Below the pieces are notes generated by a model, which did not search any database, had not been told where the DNA came from, and worked only from the letters and a program-made list of their open reading frames with translations. Source: Anabaena sphaerica FACHB-251 (GTDB lineage: Bacteria > Cyanobacteriota > Cyanobacteriia > Cyanobacteriales > Nostocaceae). Taken from it: DNA of 64,000 nucleotides. Where the stretch lies: the NCBI RefSeq assembly GCF_014696825.1, contig NZ_JACJQU010000016.1, positions 62,001 through 126,000 of the forward strand. The letters are read 5' to 3'. Below, in pieces: positions 16,517 to 40,450 of this stretch. The translations under genes and the position numbers were made by a program. How positions within the stretch are numbered: position 1 is the first letter of the stretch; every line of letters starts with the position of its first letter.

Positions 16517-17602
16517 ATGCAGATAAAATTTTCTTTGGAACAATTACTTAAATGGTTAATTTTGACTTTACTATTTCCGCTCATTTTTCTGAATGGGTGG
16601 CTGTTATTTTTACTATTGCAATATTTCCAACCATTGGTGACGACTCTGATTTTAGCAGTTTTGCTGGCTTTTATTTTAAACTATCCTGTTTCAGTAATTC
16701 AGCGATGGGGGATTAAGCGCAACTATGCAGTAACATTAGTTGTACTAGCAACTGTGATAATTTTAGCTGCTGTAGGTATCATTTTAATCCCTATTATTTT
16801 AGAGCAATTTCATGAAATGGCTAAATTACTTCCCCAGTGGATTGAAGATAGTTCAGCCAAACTTCAAAAATTAAATATTTGGGTTTTTGGTCAGAGATGG
16901 CAACTGGATTTAAGTCAGATATTAACTAATATTATCAATCGTTTACCTAATGAATTAGAGTATATATCTGATAAGCTTTTTAGTTTAATTGTTAATACAA
17001 TTGATAGCATTTCTGAGGCATTAATTACAGTAGTCTTGACTATTTATCTATTAATAGATGGTGAAAGAATTGTTGAGGGATTATTGAAAAAATTACCTGG
17101 GAATTTTGGTCAGGCTGTGAAAAATTCTCTCCAGCAAAACTTTCAAAATTACTTGATAGGTCAGATCAGTTTAGCTTTGTTGATGGGATTTTCCCAAACA
17201 TTGATGTTTTTAGTTTTCCGTGTTCAGTTTGGTTTACTTTTTGGTTTGGGTGTGGGAATTTTAAGCTTAATTCCCTTTGGAGATGTTGTAAGTTTGATAA
17301 TAATAATTTCAATTATAGCTTCCCATGACTTTTGGTTAGCTGTACAAATTTTAGCTGTTGCTGTTGTGATTGACCAATTAATTGATCAAGCGATCGCTCC
17401 CCGTCTTTTGGGTAAATTTACAGGTATTAGACCAATCTGGGTGATAATTTCTTTACTCATGGGAACTTATATTGCTGGGGTGTTAGGTTTGTTAATTGCT
17501 GTACCTGTGGCGGGTGTGATCAAAGATACGGTAGATGCTGTCTTTGCTGAGGTTGAGGGTAAAGCAGGGCTGGAGATTTTAGAAGAGTCAACATCGTTGT
17601 GA
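16517..17602 (+). CDS. AI-2E family (PerM-like) membrane transporter
   Basis: This 361-residue integral membrane protein has about 7-8 hydrophobic helices. Pairs at both ends flank a central soluble segment around residues 90-150. VTLVVLATVIILAAVGIILIP, VVLTIYLLIDGERI and IDQLIDQAIAPRLLGK are typical of the family. Members include the AI-2 exporter TqsA and Na+/H+ antiporters, so the substrate cannot be named. It follows pyrFE by 76 bp and may share its transcript. Confidence 0.85.
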   Translation: MQIKFSLEQLLKWLILTLLFPLIFLNGWLLFLLLQYFQPLVTTLILAVLLAFILNYPVSVIQRWGIKRNYAVTLVVLATVIILAAVGIILIPIILEQFHEMAKLLPQWIEDSSAKLQKLNIWVFGQRWQLDLSQILTNIINRLPNELEYISDKLFSLIVNTIDSISEALITVVLTIYLLIDGERIVEGLLKKLPGNFGQAVKNSLQQNFQNYLIGQISLALLMGFSQTLMFLVFRVQFGLLFGLGVGILSLIPFGDVVSLIIIISIIASHDFWLAVQILAVAVVIDQLIDQAIAPRLLGKFTGIRPIWVIISLLMGTYIAGVLGLLIAVPVAGVIKDTVDAVFAEVEGKAGLEILEESTSL

Positions 17603-17974
17603 GGTTGGGGGCTAATTAACGGATAATCATTGGCTTATATATCCGAATAGAAAAACTAATAGCTTGATTTGCAGTTATTTTCCAAAATCGTAGTTATAGC
17701 TACATACAATCCTAGAAAGCATAGATAACATTAAAAAAATATTGTACTGGAAGAAAGCATCTTGAGAACAACCTTTTTTGTTCTGTGTTTATCTTCTTAT
17801 CTTGCGGAAAACCGCATATAGGAGTCTATCTTCTTCAGAAATTTACCTGATTTTAATAGTATCAAATTCCTCTGGTCTAATCTTTTAGGCTAAGAAGTTC
17901 TCCCACAAGATTGAGGCAGGTATGGACAAAATCCTGTCATTATGCAACATAAGCTAAACGTAAAGGAGTTTACC
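17603..17974. other. Long intergenic region with two small hairpins
   Basis: The 372-bp gap contains AGAACAA...TTGTTCT (17765-17784) and TGCGGAAAACCGCA (17803-17816), either of which could end the upstream transcript. The remainder probably holds the promoter of the following small gene. Nothing coding is visible. Confidence 0.4.
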
Positions 17975-18232
17975 ATGCATCGACAAATGTGCTGGTTATC
18001 TAAGTCTGGAGATGACGGAGAGAAAATTTTGCATTTGCAAACTGCACCCGGTCAACCTTGGCGGCCTTATACGGCGTTTCCTCAATTTTCAGTTGCAGAT
18101 TATCAAATACCCGGTGGTTCTAAGGGTTGGGCAACTTATCAAAAACTGTTAAAAGCTGGCTGGAGTTTAGTTCCTAGCGCACGGGCAAACGAGTTTAGCA
18201 ATAGCTTGGCAAAGTCAACAGTGCCAAATTAA
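17975..18232 (+). CDS. Small conserved-looking protein of unknown function
   Basis: The 85-residue protein starts MHRQMCWLSKSGDDGEK and contains many aromatic residues (PWRPYTAFPQF). There is no signal peptide or membrane segment, and the family is not recognised. The start is well supported: AAAGGAG lies 8 bases before the ATG at 17975, whereas the frame opening at 17942 has no such site. It ends with a 4-bp tail-to-tail overlap with the gamma-glutamyltransferase gene. Confidence 0.7.
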   Translation: MHRQMCWLSKSGDDGEKILHLQTAPGQPWRPYTAFPQFSVADYQIPGGSKGWATYQKLLKAGWSLVPSARANEFSNSLAKSTVPN

Positions 18233-19956
18233 TAGCCTTTGGCTGAACCTTCACCACGGGGATCTGCGGCTCCTTCTAAGGTATCCTTTTCTGTAACAGC
18301 AATCGCATTAATATTACCCCAAGGTGTAGTTTCTTTGATTTTCTGTCCGCGACGGCGTAGGTCTTGCAAGGTTAACGCATCTAAACCCCAAGACTCGACA
18401 CGCAACTCATCGGGTAGCCACTGGTGATGTATGCGTGGCACAGAAACGGCTGCACCAACATCCATTTTGTATTCCAAAACATTCAGTATTATTTGCAATA
18501 CTTGGGTGATGATGGTGCTACCACCAGGCGCACCTACAGCTAAACGCAAGCGGTTGTTTTCGGTGACGATGGTGGGTGTCATACTGGAAAGTGGTGTTTT
18601 CCGGGGGGCGATGCTATTTGCTTCGTTACCAACTAAACCAAAGGCGTTTGGTACTCCTGGTGCAGCTGCAAAATCATCCATTTCGTTATTTAAAACTATT
18701 CCTGTTCCCGGTGTGACTATTCCCGCACCAAAACCTAAGTTAATGGTGAAGGTTAAACTGACGGCGTTTCTGTCTGCGTCAACTACGTTTAAATGACTGG
18801 TTTCTGTTTTTTCAGGAATTTTTGTTGTTTTCAGTCCTGGTTTTATTTCTGTTGATGGTGTCGCCTTATTCATGTTAATTTGTTGGCGACGTTTTTGGGC
18901 GTAATTTTTGCTAATTAGTTCAGAAACGGGGACTTTCACAAAATCAGGATCACCTAAATATTGAGAGCGATCGCTGTAAGCAATTTTCATGCTTTCTATC
19001 ATTAAATGTATCGCGTCTGGGTGATTCCATCCTAATGATTTTAAGTCTGTGTCACCGATAATATTTAACATTTGTAATAAATGAACGCCTCCTGATGATG
19101 GAGGTGGCATAGAACAAATTTTAGCTTTTCGGAAATTTCCACAAACAGGAGTGCGCCAAATTGTTTTATATGATTTTAAATCTTCGAGAGTAATTAAACC
19201 ACCATTTTTGGCCATGTCATCAGCGATAAGTTTGGCAATTTCTCCGGTGTAAAAACTTTGGGGATTTTGAGAAATGGTTTCTAATGTTTTAGCTAAGTCA
19301 GTTTGAATAAAACTTTCTCCTGGTTGATAATATTCACCGTTGCGAGTGAAGATTTTACTTGCTGCGGGGTTGTTAAGTATTGCTTGTTTAAGGTTTTCGT
19401 AAGCTGAAATAGAACGCCAAGAGATTCTATCACTGATAATAAAACCATTTTTAGCAAGGGAAATTGCAGGTTTAACAACTTCTTGCCAAGGTAGCTTTCC
19501 ATAACGACGATGTACTTCATACATTCCTGCAACAGTTCCCGGTGTTGCTACTGCTAAATAACCTGTAATACTCGCACCGGGAATCACTTTACCATTAGCA
19601 TCTAAATACATATTTTTTGTTGCTTTGATGGGTGCGCGTTCCCGAAAATCTAAAGCTTTAATTTCTCCGGTTTTTTGAGAATGAAATAGTAGGAAACCAC
19701 CGCCACCAATACCTGCGGAAAATGGTTCAACTACGGAAATTGCAAAGGTGGTCGCTACTGCTGCATCTACCGCATTTCCGCCTTTTTTTAATATTGAAAG
19801 TCCGGCTTCACTGGCTAAGGGGTTGGCGGAAGTTACCATTCCTTTTTTGCTGCGTAGGGGTACGGTGATGGTGGCTGATGCTGCTTGGGTAGTGAGGATA
19901 GCAGTGAGGGAGATGAAGGAGATGATGAGGTTTTTGGTTTTGGTGATGGTAGGCAT
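18229..19956 (-). CDS. ggt: Gamma-glutamyltransferase
   Basis: The 575-residue exported enzyme hydrolyses or transfers the gamma-glutamyl group of glutathione. A signal peptide covers about residues 1-27. The large subunit has SANPLASEAGLSILKKGGNAVDAA and EPFSAGIGGGGF. Autocleavage is expected before the Thr of TSHLNVVD, which becomes the nucleophile of the small subunit. The glycine pair needed for the tetrahedral intermediate is probably in VGAPGGS. The gene is divergent from the toxin-antitoxin operon. Confidence 0.93.
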   Translation of the reverse strand: MPTITKTKNLIISFISLTAILTTQAASATITVPLRSKKGMVTSANPLASEAGLSILKKGGNAVDAAVATTFAISVVEPFSAGIGGGGFLLFHSQKTGEIKALDFRERAPIKATKNMYLDANGKVIPGASITGYLAVATPGTVAGMYEVHRRYGKLPWQEVVKPAISLAKNGFIISDRISWRSISAYENLKQAILNNPAASKIFTRNGEYYQPGESFIQTDLAKTLETISQNPQSFYTGEIAKLIADDMAKNGGLITLEDLKSYKTIWRTPVCGNFRKAKICSMPPPSSGGVHLLQMLNIIGDTDLKSLGWNHPDAIHLMIESMKIAYSDRSQYLGDPDFVKVPVSELISKNYAQKRRQQINMNKATPSTEIKPGLKTTKIPEKTETSHLNVVDADRNAVSLTFTINLGFGAGIVTPGTGIVLNNEMDDFAAAPGVPNAFGLVGNEANSIAPRKTPLSSMTPTIVTENNRLRLAVGAPGGSTIITQVLQIILNVLEYKMDVGAAVSVPRIHHQWLPDELRVESWGLDALTLQDLRRRGQKIKETTPWGNINAIAVTEKDTLEGAADPRGEGSAKGY

Positions 19957-20060
19957 TTTTATGGTAGGGGATATTAATTAGACCACAGGTTAAAATCATT
20001 AATTTTAGTAGCTAGATAAAATATTTGACATTTTTCGAGCTAAATGGTTAAACTATTACT

Positions 20061-20103
20061 ATAGTGTTAGGACATTTGCCGTACATATAATTTATCACAC
20101 TAT
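20061..20103. promoter_or_regulatory. Promoter and probable operator of the toxin-antitoxin operon
   Basis: ATAGTGT (20061-20067) and ACACTAT (20097-20103) form an inverted repeat bracketing TATAAT (20086-20091), a perfect -10 hexamer. It lies 22 bp upstream of the DUF1778 gene. RHH-fold antitoxins of this family repress their own promoter, so this is a likely binding site. Confidence 0.55.
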
Positions 20104-20124
20104 GTTATTTGTGTAGAGGCTATC

Positions 20125-20436
20125 ATGACTCATACATCAGCTAAAAGCAGCCGAGCAAAATCCTTGCGATCTAAATCAGAAAGATTAGAAGCCCGTATCA
20201 GTCCAGAAAATAAGGAATTGTTCCAACGTGCGGCTGATATTCAGGGGAGGACACTCACAGATTTTGTAGTTAGCAGTCTTGTCAGTGCGGCAAACCAGAT
20301 TATTCAAGAAAATGAAATAATGATATTAAGCAGAAAAGACCAAGAGGTTTTTGTAGAAGCACTGCTGAATCCACCTGAACCCAGCGAAAAGTTACGGGCT
20401 GCTGCTCAACGTTATAAAAAGAATATGGGTGTATAA
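20125..20436 (+). CDS. DUF1778 (TacA-type) antitoxin
   Basis: The 103-residue protein has the ribbon-helix-helix DUF1778 domain (SERLEARISPENKELFQRAADIQGRT, residues about 19-43), which binds DNA as a dimer. The C-terminal half (LNPPEPSEKLRAAAQRYKK) is the flexible segment that neutralises the toxin. It ends immediately before the GTG start of the GNAT gene, so the two are translationally coupled. The first 18 residues are rich in Ser, Lys and Arg, a basic tail. Together they form a TacAT-type type II module. Confidence 0.92.
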   Translation: MTHTSAKSSRAKSLRSKSERLEARISPENKELFQRAADIQGRTLTDFVVSSLVSAANQIIQENEIMILSRKDQEVFVEALLNPPEPSEKLRAAAQRYKKNMGV

Positions 20437-20967
20437 GTGGAAAATTTAATAGATAGTTCTGATGCTTTCAAGCATTATTTAATAGAGCCGCTAGGAAAAA
20501 AACATAACCGGGCGGCCTTCTGTTGTGGTGTTGATAAACTAGATAATTATTTTCAAAAACACGCTGGGCAAGATGCACGTAAACGAATGGCAGCCCCATT
20601 GGTTTTAGTAGAAAAAAGTTCTGGAAATATAGCAGGTTTTTATACATTATCATCAACAAGTATTAAATTAGAAGAATTGCCTATAGAGATAACTAAAAAA
20701 CTGCCAAAATATCCTCTACTTCCTGCTACTCTTTTAGGTAGATTAGCTGTAGATCAAAACCATCGCCAGAAAGGGTTGGGCGAAATGTTGTTAATTGATG
20801 CTCTATATCGTAGTCTGAAAAGTGAAATTGCCACACTTGCTGTTGTGGTTGAAGCTAAAGATGATCAAGCACGATCATTTTATGAGCATTATCAATTTTC
20901 TCGCTTTCCTGATTATTCTCACAGGCTCTTTTTGATGATGGATACAATAGAGAAAATGCTTACATAG
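20437..20967 (+). CDS. GNAT acetyltransferase toxin (TacT-type)
   Basis: The 176-residue protein is a GNAT-fold enzyme. Acetyl-CoA binding motif A is seen in LLGRLAVDQNHRQKGLGEMLL (R-x-x-G-x-G type), and the C-terminal FYEHYQFSRF supplies the conserved Tyr. Toxins of this class acetylate the amino group of charged tRNAs and block translation. It starts with GTG directly after the antitoxin stop (TAAGTG). The catalytic residues look intact, so it may be active. Confidence 0.92.
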   Translation: MENLIDSSDAFKHYLIEPLGKKHNRAAFCCGVDKLDNYFQKHAGQDARKRMAAPLVLVEKSSGNIAGFYTLSSTSIKLEELPIEITKKLPKYPLLPATLLGRLAVDQNHRQKGLGEMLLIDALYRSLKSEIATLAVVVEAKDDQARSFYEHYQFSRFPDYSHRLFLMMDTIEKMLT

Positions 20968-21084
20968 TGATTATAAGGAATTAGCAATAAATACAATATG
21001 CTGTAAATAGCAGCAGTCAATTATTAGATTTACTCATTTTGTAAATTTTCAAATCACAACAGACATCATCAAATCGAAATTATT

Positions 21085-21930
21085 ATGACTACAGTTGTAT
21101 GTTGGTTAAACAAATCAGAAGAGGAACACAGATTATGGTCTATTGCTGATACTCAAATATCAAGAAAAGATCGAGACGTATTGGGTAAACAAATTGTTTA
21201 CACCGAACTATTAAAATATGGAGCTAAGATATTTCCTTTATACATAAAATGTAAAACGGACTTTTTTAGTCCTAATCCCTATTTTGAACATTCAATAGGT
21301 ATGGCATATGCAGGAGCTAGTTTGATAGGACTAAATATTTATGCAACATTAGCTAATATCCTTCAAAATCTCAATAATTGTAACAAAGAAATTCCTTCAA
21401 TATCAGATGTTGCTAATTGTGTAAAAAATTTGCTTGAACTCATGGCTATTTCTGTAGGAGCAAGTGGTAGTGATGCTACTTGTGAAATTGCAATATTTGG
21501 ATTTTGCTATCCCAGTTATCAATTTAAAATTTTTCATTTAGAAACTGATATTAGTAGTGGAAAATTAGAAATTAAAGTTACCGAAGGAGATATATCAAAT
21601 GATAATTATTTTCTATTACTTGGATCTAAGAAGGATGAAATCAGAACATTCATTTATCAAAAAAGAACAGAATATGAAAAAACTCATTTGGAATGGTGGT
21701 ATGCACCTGAAAAAGTCATAAAAGAAATTGTCTCAGAAAAAAAATTTAATGGTATAGGTGGTTCAGTTCAGAGGGGTATTAGCACAAAATCAGGATTTCA
21801 ACTGTATTCTTATGTAGTTCCTCTAAACAAAGGCGATTCTCAAGCGGGAATACTATATCAAAATATTGATATCTTTCAAGAAATAGGTCTTGTTGGTAAC
21901 TGTATTATAGGTATTCCTGGATTATCCTGA
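21085..21930 (+). CDS. Orphan protein resembling a proteasome-type Ntn hydrolase
   Basis: The 281-residue protein is not a recognised family. Its N-terminus reads MTTVVCWL, then IADTQIS (Asp22), a KYGAKIFPL segment (Lys48) and IGMAYAGAS. That order matches the layout of proteasome beta subunits and HslV: Thr nucleophile after Met removal, then Asp, Lys, and a small-residue beta strand. GASGSDATCEIAIFGF may correspond to the conserved Ser-Gly turn. No signal peptide is present. It stands alone, 117 bp after the toxin-antitoxin pair and before ModBC, with no hslU or other unfoldase nearby. The assignment is an inference from pattern only. Confidence 0.5.
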   Translation: MTTVVCWLNKSEEEHRLWSIADTQISRKDRDVLGKQIVYTELLKYGAKIFPLYIKCKTDFFSPNPYFEHSIGMAYAGASLIGLNIYATLANILQNLNNCNKEIPSISDVANCVKNLLELMAISVGASGSDATCEIAIFGFCYPSYQFKIFHLETDISSGKLEIKVTEGDISNDNYFLLLGSKKDEIRTFIYQKRTEYEKTHLEWWYAPEKVIKEIVSEKKFNGIGGSVQRGISTKSGFQLYSYVVPLNKGDSQAGILYQNIDIFQEIGLVGNCIIGIPGLS

Positions 21931-22005
21931 ATATTTTCAATTTATAACCAGTAATTACATTTTTATATATAGCCAATCTCCTGATTGACCCCATTCCCTA
22001 TTACC

Positions 22006-22018
22006 TGGTATAATACCA
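22006..22018. promoter_or_regulatory. Palindrome with embedded -10-like sequence before modBC
   Basis: GGTATAATACC is a perfect inverted repeat around one base and contains TATAAT, 25 bp before the ATG. It could be a promoter/operator, or part of a dispersed repeat. Confidence 0.3.
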
Positions 22019-22042
22019 ACTAAGTTGGAATTTTTACAAATT

Positions 22043-23851
22043 ATGCCACAGGACTTATCACCCCTCTGGATATCGTTAAAAACCTCATTTTTAGCGACTT
22101 TTATCACCTTCTTTTTAGGTGTTGGTGCTGCTTACTGGATGCTGGGATATCGGGGTAAAGGGAAATCTATAATTGAAGGGATATTCGTTGCACCGTTGAT
22201 TTTACCGCCTACGGTTGTGGGTTTTTTGTTGTTGCTATTTTTTGGTAAAAATGGTCCTGTTGGTAAATTACTAGAACCGTTTAACCTGACTATAGTATTT
22301 ACTTGGTATGGTGCGGCTATAGCTGCAACGGTGGTATCTTTCCCATTAATGTATAAGACTGCATTGGGAGCTTTTGAACAAATTGATGCTAATTTATTGC
22401 GGGTAGCGAGAACTTTAGGCGCTAAGGAATTAACAATATTTTGGCGGGTAAGTTTACCTTTAGCTTTTCCTGGAATTTTAGCAGGTGCAACTTTAGCTTT
22501 TGCTCGTGCTTTGGGTGAATTTGGTGCAACTTTGATGTTAGCCGGTAACATTCCTGGACAAACGCAGAATATACCAATGGCGATATATTTTGCTGTGGAA
22601 GCTGGGGATATTAAAGAAGCCTGGTTTTGGGCAATTATTATTGTGTCAATTTCTCTATCAGGAATTATTTTAACTAACTTCTGGCAAGAACAAAAGCATA
22701 AAATTAGACGTACAGATAAAGCAGAAAATCGACAAATAGAACCAGAAAATCAATCCTTTTCTTTACCTCTTCATTCTTCTACATCTGGCTTATTTTTAGA
22801 TATTGAAAAAAACCTGACAAGTTTTCATCTAAAGATTGCTTTTGCTACCGATAATCAACCTTTAGGTTTGTTGGGTGGTTCTGGTGCGGGAAAAAGTATG
22901 ATTCTCCGTTGTGTTGCGGGAATAGAAACACCAACCAAAGGCAGAATAGTATTAAATGATAGAGTTTTATTTGACTCAGGAAAAGGAATTAATATTCCTA
23001 GTCGTCATCGAAAAATAGGTTTTTTATTTCAGAATTATGCTTTGTTTCCTCATTTAACTGTGGCGCAAAATATCGCCTTTGGTTTACCCAAAGAATTATC
23101 TAATAACAATATCAAGTTAGAGGTAGAAAAGCAATTAATAGCTATGCACTTAGAGGGACTAGGCGATCGCTATCCTCACCAACTTTCAGGAGGTCAACAA
23201 CAACGGGTAGCTTTAGCTAGGGCTTTGGCAAGTCAACCAGAAGCATTACTTTTAGATGAGCCATTTTCTGCCCTGGATACACACCTGCGGAGTCAATTAG
23301 AACAACAAATGACGAAAACTTTAGCTGAATATTCTGGTGTGACTTTATTTGTTACTCATAATATGGAAGAAGCTTATCGGCTTTGTCCCAATCTATTAGT
23401 ATTAGAACATGGTAAAGAAGCTCATCATGGTTCTAAGTATGAAATTTTCCAACATCCTGCTACTATGAATGTTGCAAAAATCACTGGATGTAAAAACTTT
23501 TCTAGTGCTGTATTTATATCATCCCAAAAAGTTGAATCAATTGATTGGGGTTGTACTTTGGAAGTTGTAGAATCAATTCCTAATCAATTATCTCACATTG
23601 GCATTCGCGCCCATCAAATTGAATTTCACAATGACGCTACACAGGAAAATACTTTTCCCTGTTGGTTAGTGAGAACTAGCGAAACTCCTCACCGCATGAC
23701 TTTATTTTTAAAGTTACATTCCCCGGCGGAAAATATTCATGATTATCACTTGCAAGCGGAAGTTTATAAGGAAAAATGGGTGACGATAAAAGACAAACCT
23801 TTTCCTTGGTATGTACATTTAGATCCTGTGCGGTTGATGTTGATGGAATAA
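22043..23851 (+). CDS. modBC: Molybdate ABC transporter, fused permease and ATPase (ModB-ModC)
   Basis: The 602-residue fusion imports molybdate. Residues about 1-225 are the ModB permease with five or so helices and the EAA loop (RVARTLGAKELTIFWRVSLP). The ATPase follows: Walker A GGSGAGKS, signature LSGGQQQRVALARA, Walker B ALLLDEPFSALD. The last 120 residues resemble a degenerate ModC C-terminal Mo-binding domain. The ATG at 22043 is chosen over the TTG at 22025. No ModA gene lies nearby, so the binding protein must be encoded elsewhere. The Mo oxidoreductase at 14 kb would need this supply. Confidence 0.9.
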   Translation: MPQDLSPLWISLKTSFLATFITFFLGVGAAYWMLGYRGKGKSIIEGIFVAPLILPPTVVGFLLLLFFGKNGPVGKLLEPFNLTIVFTWYGAAIAATVVSFPLMYKTALGAFEQIDANLLRVARTLGAKELTIFWRVSLPLAFPGILAGATLAFARALGEFGATLMLAGNIPGQTQNIPMAIYFAVEAGDIKEAWFWAIIIVSISLSGIILTNFWQEQKHKIRRTDKAENRQIEPENQSFSLPLHSSTSGLFLDIEKNLTSFHLKIAFATDNQPLGLLGGSGAGKSMILRCVAGIETPTKGRIVLNDRVLFDSGKGINIPSRHRKIGFLFQNYALFPHLTVAQNIAFGLPKELSNNNIKLEVEKQLIAMHLEGLGDRYPHQLSGGQQQRVALARALASQPEALLLDEPFSALDTHLRSQLEQQMTKTLAEYSGVTLFVTHNMEEAYRLCPNLLVLEHGKEAHHGSKYEIFQHPATMNVAKITGCKNFSSAVFISSQKVESIDWGCTLEVVESIPNQLSHIGIRAHQIEFHNDATQENTFPCWLVRTSETPHRMTLFLKLHSPAENIHDYHLQAEVYKEKWVTIKDKPFPWYVHLDPVRLMLME

Positions 23852-23879
23852 TCAGATTTTGGATTTTAGATTTTGGATA

Positions 23880-25139
23880 TTATTGTTTCAGCAACAAATA
23901 AAATAACTGTCCATCGCTAACTGTAACACCAGCGCGATCGCCTGCTATGTCACCTGTTCCTAAATAATAATCTACCCTACCAGCGCCTTTAATTGCACCA
24001 CCTGTATCTTGATCTAATACATAACGGCTAACTGTACGATTTTCCAATTCATTGTTATTATTAACAAAAGGAAAAGGTGCGCGAATTAAAGCTAAAGCAC
24101 CAGGAGGCATTAAAGATTTATCTGTAGCTATAGAACGTTCTGGAGTCAGCGGTACACCAACAGAACCGTGTGCCGATCTACCGTAGGTTTCTCTGAAAAA
24201 TACAAAACTGTTATTGCGGGGAAGATAAACATCCAAATCTTGGGGATATTTTTGGAAATACTCAAAAATTGTCGGCATTGTTACGCCCTTTTCTGGTAAT
24301 TTTCCCGCCTCTACTAATGTGCGACCCAAACTTTTATAATTATAAGCTGTATTACCAGCATATCCTATAGTTGTTTCCGTTCCATCAGTTAATTTTAAGC
24401 GTCCCGAACCTTGAATTTGAATAATATAAGGTTCAAATCTGTCTCGAAACCAAAATAACTCTAAACCCTTTAATTTACCTTTATAACCTTGTAAACCATC
24501 TGCACCTTCTAACTCTAACCTAGTGGGATGAGGTCTAGTCCAAGATCCTAAATTTGGTGGTAAGCGATAAACAGGATATTTAAATTCTTTGGTTGGTTTG
24601 CGACTAGCTAAATATAATGGTTCATAATAAGCAGTAAACAAAACTGTTCCTTGACTATCTTTACCAACAGATTGATAATAGACAAACTCTTTCTCAATCG
24701 CTGCTTGTAATTCTTGAGGCGACTTAGTTGACAATACTAATTGTCGGAATCTTTGCAAACTACGATAAACCCTATCTCTCGTAATTCCAGGAATTTTATA
24801 TCTTTGATAAGCAGCCGCAGCCCGACCTGTTTTTAAATATCTTAAACTTTGATCAATAGATTTGAGTAATGCCTTCCTATCTGCTATTTTCTCCTGTTCA
24901 CTACCATAGATCCTTTCATCTAAACAAGAAGCATCATTTTCACAACAACCAACCGGTAATCTTTGGAGAAGTACAGGTGCATTTTTGGTGTTTTCAGTTT
25001 TCAAAGATGTTGGTAAATTCCACTTGGTTACTTGACATTCTGGAGAAATTACGTCTTTGTTTTTTATCGCTGGCATTTCCAGGAAAAAAATCGTCAAAAA
25101 AAACGGTAAGCTGACAGTTGTGTTAAATATTTTTTTCAT
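23880..25139 (-). CDS. mltA: Membrane-bound lytic murein transglycosylase A
   Basis: The 419-residue protein cleaves peptidoglycan glycan strands to 1,6-anhydromuramic acid. A signal-like N-terminus (residues 1-24) precedes a Cys-containing low-similarity segment. The MltA domain follows (QGTVLFTAYYEPLY, FRDRFEPYIIQIQGSGRLKL), then the 3D domain (DQDTGGAIKGAGRVDYYLGTG). It is convergent with modBC, separated by 28 bp of TTTTGGA-type repeats. Confidence 0.92.
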   Translation of the reverse strand: MKKIFNTTVSLPFFLTIFFLEMPAIKNKDVISPECQVTKWNLPTSLKTENTKNAPVLLQRLPVGCCENDASCLDERIYGSEQEKIADRKALLKSIDQSLRYLKTGRAAAAYQRYKIPGITRDRVYRSLQRFRQLVLSTKSPQELQAAIEKEFVYYQSVGKDSQGTVLFTAYYEPLYLASRKPTKEFKYPVYRLPPNLGSWTRPHPTRLELEGADGLQGYKGKLKGLELFWFRDRFEPYIIQIQGSGRLKLTDGTETTIGYAGNTAYNYKSLGRTLVEAGKLPEKGVTMPTIFEYFQKYPQDLDVYLPRNNSFVFFRETYGRSAHGSVGVPLTPERSIATDKSLMPPGALALIRAPFPFVNNNNELENRTVSRYVLDQDTGGAIKGAGRVDYYLGTGDIAGDRAGVTVSDGQLFYLLLKQ

Positions 25140-25205
25140 GAAATTAATCTAAAGGAATAGGTGACAGGTGACAGTTAAGAGGTAATAGGGAATAATTATG
25201 GCATC

Positions 25206-25329
25206 AAGTAGGTAAGCGTTGAAAATTGTCGTCATGGCAAGGCAAAAGGCACTCATGCAAGAGGGAAGAGACTGTCAGAGATTTTACATTTTGTTACATA
25301 CCTTGGTTTTTTCGAGCCGACTTACTTAC
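25206..25329. repeat. Dispersed element, copy B (AAGTAGGT family)
   Basis: It begins AAGTAGGTAAGCGTTGAAAA, continues with TTGTCGTCATGGCAAGG, and ends TTGTTACATACCTTGG...CTTACTTAC. The same ordered blocks occur at 62188-62344 (inverted) and 62818-62936. A GTGACAG heptamer pair lies just upstream at 25160. Confidence 0.7.
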
Positions 25330-25365
25330 CAATCGCAAATTATGAATTATGAATTATGAATTTAT

Positions 25366-26682
25366 TTACTCATTCATATTATGGTATGTAGCAACAGCTG
25401 AAGGAGATATGCGATTCAAATAACGGAAAATCCAATATTTGAAAATTGTATCTAAAATCACGGGAAATGTAGCAATGAATAAAAAGATAAAATCCCTATT
25501 AGCTGGTAAACCCCAGTGTCTTGATAAGCCTTCCAGAATTACTTCCCAACCGTGGGGAGAGTGAAAACCGACAAAAACATCAGTGAACAATATAATAATA
25601 AATGCTTTGGCACTATCACTCAATCCATATACTACATGATCAAAGAAATCTTTGAGAACTGTGATAGATGACTTGCTGATGATTAACAGCCAGATAAAAG
25701 CAACTACAGAAAAAATATCTGCAAACACATTTTTAATTGCATTGGCACTTTCACGTCGAAACTCCTCTGCTACCTCCTTTGCTTTTTCGTGCATTTGGCT
25801 TTCTATCGCTTCAGATGATAGCGGAGGTGCATTACTTATCAGATTTTCAAACTTGATTCTTTCTTCAAATTTTTGCAGTTCTACCAGTGCTTCTTCTTCC
25901 ATTTCCTCATTGATAAAAATCTGCTCTGGTTCTGAACTTCTAAAATGCTCAACTAACGGACCTACTACTACAGCTTTAGCGATTTGGTGGGTGAGAAGGG
26001 GGATAATAATTAATAATAAAATAAACCGAACAGATATAATTGTTGTTTTTTGCGTTTGTCGAAAATTTTGCACTACGTCTTTTTCAGCATTGGGATCTAA
26101 TTCTGCTTGTAAACGAGTAATAGTTGTTAAAATTGAGCGCGGTAAAATCCCTGTACTATCAGCTTTTCGCTTTGGCTGAATATCACTGTTTTTAACTGAT
26201 GATTTTGGTGTGATTGGTTGGGTAATTACTTTATTATCTGCTACAGTTATAGATGGAGAAACGACATTATTGACAGAACTTGTTTCTATATCATAATTTG
26301 TGTATTTGGCAATAACTTGATCAATGAATTCTAGCTTTTCTAAAACTAAAGCTGGATTGGGATATTCTATACCTGTTTTAGCTGCCGCTTTTTGCTTAGA
26401 TTCATTTGAGAACCAACGGCTGGCTTTAAACTCTGTCAGCCGCATCCGCACATCTTTTAATAATTTCTTTAGATCAGCCTGAAAATAATCCATGACACTA
26501 CTACTGTACATAGCAGAATCAGGGCTGATTTTATTACCATTAAAATGATTGTCTTCGATTTCCTTAATCTTTAACGCTGTTTGGTAAGCTTCCTCCAAAG
26601 AGCGTTCTGGTGTCAGTAAGTACCATCTGTAAGCAGTTAGCAAAAAAGAGTATATTTTTTGACTAAACACAGAATTTTTCAT
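25366..26682 (-). CDS. pcxA: Proton extrusion protein PcxA (CotA/CemA family)
   Basis: The 438-residue protein is needed for light-driven proton extrusion and inorganic-carbon or pH homeostasis in cyanobacteria; the plastid homologue is CemA. A soluble N-terminal half opens MKNSVFSQKIYSFLLTAYRWYLLTPERSLEEAY. Four transmembrane segments follow, at about residues 215-235, 320-340, 360-375 and 400-420. The frame opens with TTG at 26688; the ATG at 26682 is preferred. It is divergent from the helicase-like gene. Confidence 0.92.
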   Translation of the reverse strand: MKNSVFSQKIYSFLLTAYRWYLLTPERSLEEAYQTALKIKEIEDNHFNGNKISPDSAMYSSSVMDYFQADLKKLLKDVRMRLTEFKASRWFSNESKQKAAAKTGIEYPNPALVLEKLEFIDQVIAKYTNYDIETSSVNNVVSPSITVADNKVITQPITPKSSVKNSDIQPKRKADSTGILPRSILTTITRLQAELDPNAEKDVVQNFRQTQKTTIISVRFILLLIIIPLLTHQIAKAVVVGPLVEHFRSSEPEQIFINEEMEEEALVELQKFEERIKFENLISNAPPLSSEAIESQMHEKAKEVAEEFRRESANAIKNVFADIFSVVAFIWLLIISKSSITVLKDFFDHVVYGLSDSAKAFIIILFTDVFVGFHSPHGWEVILEGLSRHWGLPANRDFIFLFIATFPVILDTIFKYWIFRYLNRISPSAVATYHNMNE

Positions 26683-26769
26683 CCTCAATTATCATCTAAC
26701 ATGGTTTGGCGATTCTTAAACTTAAGTTAACGCAGAAGGTATACTAACAAATCCATAAGGAGTATATTT

Positions 26770-28950
26770 GTGATTTCAGATTCTGTTTGGATTGTCGGTA
26801 CTAGTCGCAGCGGTAAAACTACTCGTTTAGCCGAACGGTTTTGTTATTGGGTGCAGAAAAATGGCAACCAACCTATAGAGTCATTTTATACGAAAAATCA
26901 AAATCAGAAAAAAGCTCAAAGCACAATCAAAACATCAAATCTTCTCCAAACAGAACCCGGAGTTTTAGTTTTAGCATCTAACGATGATAATCGCCGAACA
27001 TTAAGCGATAAAATTGTCACCTTGACTTCTGGAAAATACCCAATCCGTGCTAAAACAACCTTGGGGTTTATTCAGGATGAAGTTGTTTTATTTTGGCCGT
27101 TATTAATTGAATGTTTACAAATTAAAGCACAATTTCCGGTGAGATTGCGCCCCGAAACTGAGCAAGAATTAGCAACAAAACTTTGGGATTTTCAGTTAGA
27201 TGCGGAAACTTTGCGCCGTGCAGGAGTGAATGAGTATCGCTTAGTGAGGCGGATATTAGACCTATGGCAACTAGCGGCTTATAGTGGTACACCTTGTGAA
27301 GATATTGCTGAAGTTTTGCAAACAGGTTTACAAGAAAATGCCAGTAAACTAGAACCAGAACTTTTAGGATCTTTGTTGCTAAATTGGCGGAATTGGTGTT
27401 TAGAAAGAGGATTATTAACCTATGGATTGATTACTGAACTCTACAACCAGCATTTGTTAACTAATAGCGATTATCAGCAACGTTTAAAACAACGTTATCA
27501 GAGGGTAATAGCTGATGATGTAGATGATTATCCAGCTATAGCCTATAACTTGTTTGAGTTTCTGTTAGATGGCGGTGCGGTGGGAGCATTTAGCTATAAT
27601 CCTGATGGGGGAGTGCGTTGGGGTTTGGGTGCAGATCCTCAATATTTAGCCAGGTTAGCAAAGCGTTGTCAGGTAGAAAATTTAATCAGTCCAACAGTAG
27701 ATAATTTAGCTAATCTACTGGCTACGTCGATGATAGAATTAGTTACTGAACCGATGACAATGTTGAGTTTACCAAAGTCGGTAAAGTGTATCCAAATTCC
27801 CTCTCGCGCTCAACTTTTGCGTCAAACAACAGATGTGATCATTGATGGGATTAAATCGGGAAAGGTAGAACCGGAAGAAGTAGCGATTATCGCTCCTGGG
27901 TTAGATGCGATCGCACGTTATACTCTCATAGAAATATTAACTAAGCAAAATATCCCGGTAGAATCTCTCAATGATCAACGTCCCTTAATTAGTTCACCCG
28001 CTGTCAGAGCATTACTTACCTTACTCACTTTAGTTTATCCTGGTTTGGGGCGATTAGTAGACCGGGATGAAGTTGCAGAAATGTTGGTGATTTTAAGTCA
28101 GAGTAACACCAATTATGGAGATGATGGAGAGAAAAAAGAATCCCCACAACCGAAAATTGATCCGGTGCGTGCTGGGTTAATAGCAGATCATTGTTTTGTA
28201 CCCCATCCAGATAACCCCCACTTGTTAGAAGTAAAAACATTTGAACGCTGGGATAGAATCGGATATACTGCCACTAAAGCTTATAATGAGATATTAGAGT
28301 GGATTAAAAAACAGCGTGGGGAATATCAACAAAGTCCTCTCCCTACACCAATTTTTCTCCTATACAAAGCAATTCAAAACTTTTTGTGTAAAGATAATAA
28401 TCCCCCATTTCAAACACTAGCAGCATTACGAGAATTATTAGAAACTGCTCAACATTATTGGGAAATAGATACGAGGTTAAGACAAACAGATTCCGTCTTA
28501 CTTTCACTTCACACTCAACAAACCCTCACGACTACAATTGCTGAATTTATTCAACTATTACGACGTGGGACAATTACCGCTAACCCCTATCCTATTCGTC
28601 CCATTGGTAATGCCAAAAAAGCCGTTACTTTAGCTACCGTCTTCCAATACCGTGCGAGTCATAGATATCACAAATGGCATTTTTGGCTGGATGCGGGTTC
28701 ACCCCTCTGGGCTAAAGGTGGTGCAGCCACTTTGTTTGGTGCTACTTTATTTCTTAGAGATAGGTTAGGAGAACCTTGGACAGCAGCAGATGAACAAGAA
28801 TCAGAAACGCAACGATTACGTCGGATTATAGCAGATTTACTGGCTCGTGTTTCTGAAAGAGTTTATTTATGTCACAGTGATTTAGCTGTAAATGGACAAG
28901 AACAAATAGGTCCTTTATTATCTTTAGTTCATTCTTGTGATGTCATATAG
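26770..28950 (+). CDS. UvrD/AddB-like superfamily I helicase relative
   Basis: The 726-residue protein starts with GTG at 26770, supported by AAGGAG 7 bases upstream. A Walker A is present (GTSRSGKTTRL, residues 9-19). RVIADDVDDYP is a Walker B candidate and GGAVGAFSYNPDGGVRWGLG resembles the region after motif II in UvrD. LATVFQYRASHRYHKWHFWLDAG sits where motif V/VI would be but is strongly altered. It may be an AddB-like inactive helicase that assists end processing of DNA breaks. No nuclease Cys cluster was seen. Confidence 0.65.
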   Translation: MISDSVWIVGTSRSGKTTRLAERFCYWVQKNGNQPIESFYTKNQNQKKAQSTIKTSNLLQTEPGVLVLASNDDNRRTLSDKIVTLTSGKYPIRAKTTLGFIQDEVVLFWPLLIECLQIKAQFPVRLRPETEQELATKLWDFQLDAETLRRAGVNEYRLVRRILDLWQLAAYSGTPCEDIAEVLQTGLQENASKLEPELLGSLLLNWRNWCLERGLLTYGLITELYNQHLLTNSDYQQRLKQRYQRVIADDVDDYPAIAYNLFEFLLDGGAVGAFSYNPDGGVRWGLGADPQYLARLAKRCQVENLISPTVDNLANLLATSMIELVTEPMTMLSLPKSVKCIQIPSRAQLLRQTTDVIIDGIKSGKVEPEEVAIIAPGLDAIARYTLIEILTKQNIPVESLNDQRPLISSPAVRALLTLLTLVYPGLGRLVDRDEVAEMLVILSQSNTNYGDDGEKKESPQPKIDPVRAGLIADHCFVPHPDNPHLLEVKTFERWDRIGYTATKAYNEILEWIKKQRGEYQQSPLPTPIFLLYKAIQNFLCKDNNPPFQTLAALRELLETAQHYWEIDTRLRQTDSVLLSLHTQQTLTTTIAEFIQLLRRGTITANPYPIRPIGNAKKAVTLATVFQYRASHRYHKWHFWLDAGSPLWAKGGAATLFGATLFLRDRLGEPWTAADEQESETQRLRRIIADLLARVSERVYLCHSDLAVNGQEQIGPLLSLVHSCDVI

Positions 28951-34847: not shown

Positions 34848-36041
34848 TTAAAATGCGTGCATGAGATAAGCGAAAACTCCCATCCAAATAATAATACTCA
34901 CAGGTGCGCCAATCATAATCCCAGCGATCGCCCAACCTCTTTGATGGGCTTTAAATTGTTCAATACTGCGCCAGTGTCTACTTTTCCAAGCCCACTCATT
35001 ACCTTTAAAACCGAGAGCGATTGTCATGATTCCGCCAATATGGGGGATAAAACACAGCAACCCATACCAAACATTATTAGGCCACATCCACAACCAAGGC
35101 ATCAAAAACGCCCCCCAATTCCAACCTAAAATTTCCTCTGGTACTGGTGCATATTGATTAGATATACCACATCCAGAATTGTTAATGACATCTTTGATCT
35201 CTAAGTGTTCAACTGCTCTTTTTGGGCTAACTGTATCCCCAGATTTGAGCGCAGTCAAGGCTTGATTTGCATTACTAAAACGTTGTTCTGGTGCGGGTTC
35301 TATTAGCTTCTGCAACCAATTTTCAAAGGACAAACTCAGACTAACTCGGTCTGCAAATTGTATTCGTAAATCTTGCTGAGGTAAATCTGCGGGAGGAAGA
35401 CCAGTTAATAAATGAATTAAAGTTGCTCCTAAAGCATACAAATCCGATGCAGGAACCGCCCGACCTCCAAATTGTTCCATAGGTGCATAACCATAAGTAC
35501 CGACAACGGTAAAAGTTACACCTTCTTTAGCAGCTTTATCTTGAACAGCCCCAAAATCAACTAAATAAATTTGATTATCTTCACCCCAAATCAAATTACT
35601 TGGTTTAATATCTCGATGTAAAACTCCTGGATTTAACTCATGTAAATAGGTGAGAATTTTTAAAACCTTAACAGCAATTTTTCTAACTTTATTTTCCGTA
35701 AATCTTTCACCAGCAACGAGTTTTTCTTTGAGAGATTCACCAGGAATATATTCTTGAATCAAGCCAAACCAGAGACTGCGGTCATCAATACAAAAATAAT
35801 CAATATACTTGGGGATACAAGGATGATTTAGTTGTTTCAGAATCTGTCCTTCTCTCTCAAATAGTTTGAGGTCATCCCACTGAACAGCACCACCAAAAGC
35901 CAAGAGTTTGACGACAACTAAAGAATTTTCTGGGTTAGTGGCTTGCAAATCCTTAGCTAACCAAGTTTGGCGAATTCCATTATTCCCAAGTTGGCGTTGG
36001 ATTTGATAACGGTCTTGTAATATTTCTTCTGTTTGCAGCAT
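34848..36041 (-). CDS. Serine/threonine protein kinase with C-terminal membrane segments
   Basis: The 397-residue protein carries a Hanks-type kinase domain in residues about 12-265: HRDIKPSNLIW catalytic loop, DFGAVQD Mg-binding motif, GTYGYAPMEQFGG activation and P+1 segment. The Gly-rich loop (QLGNNGIRQTW) is loose. After a 30-residue linker, two hydrophobic segments (about 310-345 and 370-395) look like a TM hairpin domain often fused to cyanobacterial kinases. The substrate is unknown. It lies in a signalling-rich stretch with a histidine kinase and an adenylate cyclase on the same strand. Confidence 0.9.
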   Translation of the reverse strand: MLQTEEILQDRYQIQRQLGNNGIRQTWLAKDLQATNPENSLVVVKLLAFGGAVQWDDLKLFEREGQILKQLNHPCIPKYIDYFCIDDRSLWFGLIQEYIPGESLKEKLVAGERFTENKVRKIAVKVLKILTYLHELNPGVLHRDIKPSNLIWGEDNQIYLVDFGAVQDKAAKEGVTFTVVGTYGYAPMEQFGGRAVPASDLYALGATLIHLLTGLPPADLPQQDLRIQFADRVSLSLSFENWLQKLIEPAPEQRFSNANQALTALKSGDTVSPKRAVEHLEIKDVINNSGCGISNQYAPVPEEILGWNWGAFLMPWLWMWPNNVWYGLLCFIPHIGGIMTIALGFKGNEWAWKSRHWRSIEQFKAHQRGWAIAGIMIGAPVSIIIWMGVFAYLMHAF

Positions 36042-39145: not shown

Positions 39146-40450
39146 TTATTGATTGTTAAATTTTGCTCTCAGGAGTAAGTAAGTGTTCATTTCCCCTTTA
39201 CCTTTGACTTCAATTAAGCCGCGTTCTTGGAGTAAATAGTTTTCTTTTAACAGATGATAGCTGGCTTCACAAACCTGGATACAACCTGGTATACCATGTG
39301 ATTCCATTCTACTAGCAGTATTAACTGTATCTCCCCACAGATCATAAGCAAATTTTTTTAACCCAATCACCCCTGCTACTACTGGACCAGTGCTAATACC
39401 AATACGGATACGAAACGATTGATTTTGTTCTTGGTTGAACCTAGCTACAGCCTGTTGCATATCCAGCGCCATATTAGCTATGGCTATGGCATGATCACTG
39501 CGATGATTAGGTAAACCAGCAACTGCCATATATGCATCACCAATAGTCTTGATTTTCTCGATTCCATGCAGTTCTGCTAATTCATCAAATAAGCAGAATA
39601 TTTCGTTTAATAACTCCACTAGTTGAGGTGGGGAAGTATGACTAGAAAGCTCCGTAAATCCTACAATATCAGCGAATAAAACTGTTACTTCCAGGAAGCT
39701 ATCAGCAATGGTTGTAGGTTGTTGTTTTAATTGTTCAGCTATTACCTGTGGTAAGATATTTAAAATCAGTTTTTCTGATTGTTTTTGGGCTATTTCTAAT
39801 TCTTGTCTCGACCTAAATTCTTGTTTCTTCAACTGTTCATATAAATAAACAGAAAAAACACAAATTAGTGCAGTCCAAAAGAAATAAATTCCATTTTCTA
39901 CATAAAAATATAATGGATGTCTAAATTGAGGACGATAGATTAAGTACAATCCTAAATAAGAGACAATCGTACCAATTTGTGAGATGAGATGAGTTCGCCA
40001 TAATACAGGAATAAGAGTGGCTTGAGTGATAAACATCAAATTCCAAATATTAGTAAAAGGCTCTACAAAATCAAACAGAATGGCCGTATAAATTTGGACA
40101 ACACAAGTTACAGCCCAAGATAAACTTAAAAAAATTAAATGTGGGTAACGATGTCCTAGTTTAGTCTGGCATAATAACCAACAAATCAAAATGAAAAATT
40201 CAATTACTAAACCAATTTTCAAGGCATATAATTTTCCATGAGGTTGTTGATTCACCCAGACAAAAAAAGCAGTCAGTGTTAAACCAACAATGAGCATGAT
40301 TTTTGTTTGCAATTCTAAACGCTTGAGTATAAAGCGCCGCCGCTGTTCTTTGTAGGATTCAACCTGGCTTACATCTATTTGCAAGTCCAATATTTCCGGA
40401 GTAAACAGCGCCTCTATTCGGGTTGTACCAAAATCTCTTTTGGGAATCAT
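39146..40450 (-). CDS. Class III adenylate cyclase with multi-helix membrane domain
   Basis: The 434-residue protein has six or so hydrophobic helices (about residues 50-205), a short coiled-coil linker and a catalytic domain. Metal-binding Asp residues are in VLFADIVGFTELSS and KTIGDAYMA. The base-selecting residues are Lys in EKIKTIGD and Asp in AYDLWGDTVNTASRME, which specify ATP, so it should make cAMP. The Asn and Arg of the last motif stabilise the transition state. It is divergent from the helicase gene, with a 53-bp gap. Confidence 0.9.
   Translation of the reverse strand: MIPKRDFGTTRIEALFTPEILDLQIDVSQVESYKEQRRRFILKRLELQTKIMLIVGLTLTAFFVWVNQQPHGKLYALKIGLVIEFFILICWLLCQTKLGHRYPHLIFLSLSWAVTCVVQIYTAILFDFVEPFTNIWNLMFITQATLIPVLWRTHLISQIGTIVSYLGLYLIYRPQFRHPLYFYVENGIYFFWTALICVFSVYLYEQLKKQEFRSRQELEIAQKQSEKLILNILPQVIAEQLKQQPTTIADSFLEVTVLFADIVGFTELSSHTSPPQLVELLNEIFCLFDELAELHGIEKIKTIGDAYMAVAGLPNHRSDHAIAIANMALDMQQAVARFNQEQNQSFRIRIGISTGPVVAGVIGLKKFAYDLWGDTVNTASRMESHGIPGCIQVCEASYHLLKENYLLQERGLIEVKGKGEMNTYLLLRAKFNNQ

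Follow-up and report, generated by a model that had tools for sequence, protein, structure and literature searches.

We describe here a 281-residue protein, encoded in a 64,000-nucleotide stretch of the Anabaena sphaerica FACHB-251 genome (the window), that is almost certainly a proteasome-beta-type Ntn hydrolase as judged from its predicted fold and its family. The fold and the active site are well supported, sequence and model together suggest that the protein is very probably an active hydrolase, and we hold with high confidence that its gene is a mobile accessory gene. In the reading that we regard as the best, and as rather likely, the protein is an N-terminal-threonine protease that serves as a single-gene conflict or defence effector; for a defence or conflict role of the gene taken by itself, which we infer from context, we see the chances as about evenly balanced.

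The gene and its neighbourhood

The gene lies in a variable slot bordered by a toxin-antitoxin pair and a transporter gene, as follows.

20125..20436, + strand: TacA-type antitoxin, left border of the slot; a sister copy (99% identical) matches Pfam PF08681
20437..20967, + strand: TacT-type GNAT toxin, left border of the slot; a sister copy (97% identical) matches GNAT models
20968..21995, no strand: variable slot (1,028 bp), over which the homology shared with two sister genomes is interrupted
21085..21930, + strand: gene for the proteasome-beta-like Ntn hydrolase, 281 aa, starting MTT, assigned by model and fold matches
22025..23851, + strand: ModBC fusion (molybdate transporter), conserved right border of the slot; matches in 107/118 family genomes at E<=1e-150, some of them to the second half only

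We take 20437..20967 to be TacT and 22025..23851 to be ModBC, names that an earlier sequence-only reading of this DNA had also used. That reading had the open reading frame right (281 aa, starting MTT, with D22 in ADTQ, K48 in YGAK and G77 in YAGAS, each at the place it gave), and the ORF positions bear out the flanking by TacAT and ModBC. The 281-aa gene starts 117 bp downstream of the TacA/TacT pair on the same strand, and no AAA+ unfoldase was seen by eye among the ORFs listed for 17000-27000, in keeping with the earlier remark that the gene has no unfoldase neighbour. The label of orphan was mistaken: the host genome (6.19 Mb) carries a second copy (paralogue G000:C4) with 49% identity, and there are homologues in Proteobacteria. 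The names of homologous loci in the host's family include Anabaena, Nostoc and Trichormus.

Predicted fold

An AlphaFold2 model of the window protein, computed from this protein and 12 homologues, has a mean pLDDT of 85.9 and a pTM of 0.86, and its strand and helix order is that of a proteasome beta subunit, giving a predicted alpha-beta-beta-alpha fold with flanking helices. Foldseek against the PDB returned 811 matches, 407 of them at E<=0.001 (best E 6.4e-7), and the best 50 of the 811, which are those listed, are all proteasome chains; the structure prediction and fold search that the sequence-only reading had proposed as its check thus came out in its favour. With VIA-align, residues 2..260 of the model superpose on residues 1..192 of yeast beta5 (5d0v_Y; Z 19.4, 2.5 A over 186 residues, 14% identity), a span that includes Thr2, Asp22 and Lys48 and in which Thr2 falls on the catalytic Thr1 of yeast beta5. 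Rows at most 1 Z unit apart are treated as tied, and Anbu 5nyw (18.6) is among them. The second protein modelled is a viral-contig copy that shares 99% identity with an E. coli member and 24% with the window protein. Its model has a pLDDT of 80.9 and matches Anbu 5nyw at Z 18.8 (3.5 A over 209 residues), level with proteasome chains.

Searches of sequence libraries were largely silent. Pfam and NCBIfam gave no match above cut-off for the window protein, and below threshold only weak ones to DUF5125 and urea carboxylase. PF00227 (Proteasome subunit) did not match it at E<=10, nor six family members at E<=1, and it had no match in the host genome. None of the families of PADLOC-DB 2.0.0 matched at E<=10, PHROGs at E<=1 gave weak matches only (best 5.8e-4, for the Acinetobacter member), and the PDB searched by sequence returned nothing credible for the window protein or for a 13-row profile.

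Active site

The residues expected to form the active site, and the lengthened hairpin that adjoins them, are encoded as follows.

21088..21090, + strand: Thr2 codon, predicted N-terminal nucleophile after Met1 removal (= proteasome Thr1); from VIA-align, and conserved in 20/20 rows
21148..21150, + strand: Asp22 codon (= proteasome Asp17); 20/20 rows, aligned by hhalign onto the Asp of Anbu and HslV
21226..21228, + strand: Lys48 codon (= proteasome Lys33); 20/20 rows, aligned to the Lys of Anbu and HslV
21229..21315, + strand: lengthened strand-4/strand-5 hairpin, residues 49-77, ending in Gly77 (= oxyanion Gly47); from residue spacing and the model

Thr2, Asp22, Lys48 and Gly77 are invariant in 20/20 rows of the family alignment, at identities down to 23%, and they are part of a set of 11 invariant columns (T2, W7, D22, K48, G77, G139, C141, G180, P208, G226 and Q229). 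The three residues that had been named beforehand all fall among these 11, for which we put the chance at roughly 5e-5 (11*10*9 / 281*280*279). The Thr-Asp-Lys layout of proteasome/HslV type, to which the sequence-only reading had seen a resemblance, is supported by the predicted fold and the conserved residues together. In a profile alignment the Thr, the Asp, the Lys and the next glycine are matched to those of Anbu and HslV.

The 20 rows are non-redundant, the window's own locus being kept out among the dropped duplicates. Left out were the own locus, repeat records and near-duplicates (L001, L004, L008, L009, L011-L015, L020, L021, L028, L030, L031 and L044, where L004, which is also frameshifted, and L020 each nearly duplicate a row that was retained); L003, a non-significant match (E 0.07) from the window's own genome; the broken or partial copies L017, L037, L043 and L045, together with unfetched E. 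coli matches; and the other subtypes L018, L019 and L023-L026.

Met1 precedes Thr2 in 19/20 rows, so that removal of Met1 is likely; the Vibrio copy has ATC at this position. The position of proteasome Ser129, which we map to residue 181, is Asp in 15/20 rows, and we count this against the reading as a whole. We also note that the Vibrio plasmid copies (L005:8001 and L004:8001-8884) are without ATG at the conserved start, that the ATC found there in L005 stands behind a Shine-Dalgarno-like AGGAG, and that the annotated starts of L004 and L005 lie further in, leaving out the Thr.

The spacing between the Lys and the Gly is 29-32 residues in 20/20 rows, and, counted on the sequences, 15 in HslV, 15 in L019 and 18 in Anbu. 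The model has strands at residues 49-57 and 66-77 that form a long hairpin, the S4/S5 numbering being our own mapping.

Exchange at the TacT-ModBC slot

The neighbourhood is conserved, at about 88-93% DNA identity, in G222 and G031, two relatives that belong to genus g32. Their homology with the window breaks off with the stop codon of TacT (20967) and is picked up again at 21996. In place of the gene, their slot holds an AAA_21 ATPase and a DUF4276 protein (by Pfam in G222 and by similarity in G031). The ATPase matched 151 PADLOC models, with HEC-01A the best (2.3e-73) and AriA the next among other systems (9.1e-35), and the second gene matches HEC-01B (4.8e-16), HEC-01 being a candidate defence system in PADLOC; the name HEC-01 was absent among the matches listed in a search of open-licence PubMed Central text. 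Because G222 and G031 share a genus, the slot exchange may be one event. The HEC-01B-like gene of G031 appears to be split into two ORFs (L095:5455-6087, - strand), so that the pair may no longer be intact in this genome.

The ModBC surroundings of ten relatives were read. The TacAT slot occupied by the HEC-01-like pair is present in two of the ten (G222 and G031), while in G223 GGT and ModBC are separated by other genes. For G014, G062, G063, G064, G199, G200 and G238, a search with the genes that lie to the left in the window turned up none of these close to ModBC. TacAT itself (window 20125-20967 compared with L094 and L095) is nearly identical across species, with dS of 0.03-0.06 as against 0.27-0.45 for the flanking genes, which argues that the region recombined recently.

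Distribution and mobility

A profile search finds the gene in 7/217 genomes of the host's family (nine matches minus the L018 and L019 subtypes), one of which (L017/L037) is without the middle of the gene, and phylum-wide 3/386 cyanobacteria match at E<=1e-10. Members occur on plasmids (7 of 72,556 records, from Vibrio, Azoarcus, Acinetobacter, E. coli and Ruegeria) and on 7 viral contigs, and there are more copies in Bordetella, Aurantiacibacter, Pseudomonas, Nitrosospira (a truncated copy) and other cyanobacteria (9 loci). DNA matches are present in 42/5,426 E. coli genomes; six of the 42 have at least 80% query coverage and at least 99% identity, and 36 are at 60-80% identity and, among the matches listed, cover only the first 252 query bases. 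A member of this latter group, L022, encodes 306 residues that are alignable throughout. Among the E. coli copies that were read, those in prophages have the tor genes or an integrase on one side and genes for phage tails on the other, and another E. coli context is an ICE, with the copy behind a conjugation ATPase.

Other searches were negative within their scope: a genome scan with the single protein confirmed 0/35 candidates, a single-sequence search of 60 relatives matched the host genome alone, a search of phage records found no family member, and one viral scan found none either, the 7 contigs having come from other viral searches. In a tree of the 20 rows, in which 7/17 inner branches are strong, the cyanobacterial rows form two groups, one of which branches from within a set of viral, alpha-proteobacterial and beta-proteobacterial rows. 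Broken copies are found through internal deletion (L037), frameshift (L004) and truncation (L043). The deleted copy, L037:7962-8456, is from Anabaena lutea, and the truncated Nitrosospira copy, L043:8001-8308, stands beside an IS-like sequence. Against the view of the gene as cargo, the paralogue's ortholog group occupies one fixed place in three genomes.

Evolutionary rate

The paralogue (G000:C4) differs from the counterpart that A. catenula has in the corresponding position by 38 nonsynonymous and 6 synonymous changes (dN/dS 1.66), whereas four neighbours in this comparison have dN/dS of 0.08-0.24, and the ratio of 38:6 departs from the 199:333 of the longest neighbour with p 1.8e-10. Within the gene, however, the nonsynonymous excess is non-significant (p 0.34), so that relaxed constraint is possible, and positive selection is rejected as a demonstrated result. 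The low dS of this pair points to recent exchange. Residues 1-99 hold only 2/31 of its amino-acid changes (p 2.7e-4, with the boundary set after viewing the list). Compared with a Sphaerospermopsis counterpart, the paralogue has a dN/dS of 0.57, and ten neighbours have 0.09-0.38. Five other family pairs have dN/dS of about 0.09-0.16 and are kept under constraint, the cyanobacterial pair L040-L016 has 0.55, the window copy against the paralogue has 0.66, and two further pairs are saturated at synonymous sites.

Candidate defence genes beside family members

Twenty-six neighbour proteins from 16 loci, picked by eye and some of them as much as about 3 kb off, were compared with PADLOC models. At E<=1e-30, matches were obtained for 8/26 proteins from 5/16 loci, with 4 of the 8 from one Vibrio locus, as against 1/10 other window genes used as a control; at E<=1e-13 the figures are 11/26 and 2/10. 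The matches at the stricter threshold are to CBASS cyclases (Vibrio and Pseudomonas), PDC-S59, Tmn and PDC-S64, and in the Vibrio CBASS locus there are reverse-transcriptase, SLATT and PDC-M27 genes as well. The candidate defence genes beside some copies hint at a defence link and are suggestive at most; as proof of defence they are rejected, since 5/16 loci is not clearly above the background of 1/10 controls. The two control genes that matched, at window 34851-36041 (- strand; PD-T4-6, 1.8e-62) and 39149-40450 (- strand; PycC, 7.2e-14), are presumably an ordinary kinase and an ordinary cyclase. Among the papers listed in searches of open-licence PubMed Central text, none was seen to tie such a protein to phage defence.

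Proposed role and alternatives

Judging from the family, the Ntn hydrolase would be made without a propeptide, and methionine aminopeptidase would strip Met1 and so expose Thr2. Thr2 would then attack a peptide or amide bond with its own amino group as the base, Lys48 and Asp22 would tune it, and the backbone of Gly77 would provide the oxyanion hole, while the lengthened S4/S5 hairpin and the variable C-terminal part may shape substrate choice or assembly. The gene very probably travels as mobile accessory cargo, with no dedicated unfoldase seen alongside, and its context suggests that the most likely job is that of a conflict effector, probably directed against phages or other mobile elements, that would cut a particular or partly unfolded protein.

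The functional hint for the family is the exact swap with a candidate defence pair, together with the copies in prophages, an ICE and plasmids. A more specific proposal, which we offer tentatively, is that the gene, carried on plasmids, in prophages, in an ICE and in swappable chromosomal slots, acts by itself in immunity: its product would be a threonine protease of proteasome fold, made with no propeptide, that might cut a phage or host protein on infection. If true, this would be bacterial defence by proteasome-type proteolysis that needs neither ubiquitin-like tagging nor an unfoldase, and it would link proteasome-type proteases to the conflicts of bacteria with their parasites. There are natural E. 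coli members, so the defence idea is directly testable there. Many bacterial proteasome relatives are of unknown role, and the main survey, by Fuchs, Alva and Lupas 2021, gives no informative genomic contexts for proteasome-like homologues (PMC8665760).

Several other roles are to be weighed against that of a conflict effector. With the fold and active site shared and no unfoldase seen alongside, the protein might be a stand-alone housekeeping-type protease that clears unfolded or damaged proteins in the manner of an uncapped 20S proteasome or BPH, and clean-up roles of this kind are proposed for BPH and other homologues in Fuchs 2021 (PMC8665760). We consider this unlikely in view of the rare and patchy occurrence (3/386 cyanobacteria), the mobile contexts, the swapping of the slot with a candidate defence pair, and the broken copies.

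It is likewise improbable, in our view, that the protein is a specific protein ligase, transpeptidase or amidase. The archaeal connectase, with its ligase/transpeptidase-type activity, shows the proteasome fold to be capable of such chemistry, as described in the same paper (PMC8665760), and in all 20 rows the active site is kept and the adjoining hairpin lengthened, but the traits of connectase are missing, and the model does have H1 and H2.

That the gene is what remains of a mobile gene, inactive or in decay, is a slim prospect. The broken copies elsewhere (L037, L004 and L043) would fit such decay, and so would the higher dN/dS of the group closest to the window copy (0.66 for this copy against the paralogue); on the other side, the window copy is intact with all 11 invariant residues, other pairs are at 0.09-0.16, and the changes in the G000:C4/A. 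catenula pair avoid the N-terminal half. We give hardly any credence to the gene being a third part of the TacAT locus, for instance a regulated antitoxin protease: it does follow TacAT on the same strand by 117 bp, TacAT looks recently exchanged (dS 0.03-0.06 against 0.27-0.45), and upstream of the gene there is, in L040, what we take to be a MazF-like gene at a distance of 68 bp and, in L032, an immediately adjoining helix-turn-helix gene, but G222 and G031 have the same TacAT without such a gene alongside, by which an obligatory part of TacAT is rejected, and another two-gene toxin-antitoxin pair directly adjoins only in the L040/L016 lineage, in neighbour lists that were read by eye.

Comparison with known proteasome relatives

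Two further types of protein were met in the searches. The L019 type, found in one cyanobacterium and on plasmids of Pseudomonas, Agrobacterium and Arcobacter, resembles the family in a profile match (E 5e-10 over 194 columns), a similar start, the (A)SDSRISW motif and the Lys, but is without the S4/S5 lengthening (15 residues), and the Arcobacter row of this type, unlike the family, starts MS and has Glu in place of the Asp. A HEPN/Toprim gene (PF18871, 3.7e-51) precedes the Arcobacter copy by 31 bp, and the gene that follows downstream in L023-L025 encodes 175-218 aa with no Pfam match. The 336-aa protein at L018:1159-2169 (- strand, genome G032) is of another subtype (MT start, TDSS, IKLF and CFAG) and has no Pfam match; there is a 4-bp overlap between its start and the end of the ORF upstream, which we take to resemble a type I restriction specificity subunit (hsdS), and the 336-aa protein is possibly a restriction-linked proteasome-like enzyme.

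Anbu shares with the window protein the MT start and the same fold (5nyw_C, Z 18.6, 2.8 A, 195 residues), and profile similarity extends over the first half (hhalign, pairwise E 1.2e-4). It differs in its S4/S5 spacing (18 residues, against 29-32 here), in the PF00227 match that is missing here, and in its long C-terminal helix H5, which is absent from the model, where the last helix is residues 263-267. With HslV, the Thr1/Asp17/Lys33 residues and the glycine of FAGG align, although a single-sequence pairwise match is non-significant (E 0.13); E. coli HslV, however, has 176 residues, a short S4/S5 and adjoins hslU, whereas the neighbours in the window are TacAT and ModBC. Connectase is without H1 and H2 and has a two-helix insert in the S3/S4 region, whereas the model has helices at residues 79-94 and 106-124 (H1 and H2) and strands in the S3/S4 region.

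The nearest likeness in kind is to the proteasome-like homologues of Fuchs, Alva and Lupas 2021 (PMC8665760). These share the proteasome-beta fold, the Thr/Asp/Lys triad and the oxyanion Gly, a Met-Thr start without a propeptide and no linked unfoldase seen, and are prokaryotic and sometimes phage-borne. The text of that paper places insertions at the N-terminus, in S3/S4, after H1/H2, in H3/H4 and at the C-terminus, and the S4/S5 hairpin lengthened here, compared by description only, lies outside these five. The earlier suggestion that the protein is undescribed therefore stands in part: the proteasome-like homologue of unknown role is, as a kind, known already, 22 subfamilies (such as CPH, GPH, DAH and PMI-1 to 6) having been described (Fuchs 2021, PMC8665760) and set beside ours by description only, and, as far as our searches of the open-licence PubMed Central literature show, novelty lies in the longer hairpin and in the defence-like exchange at the slot.
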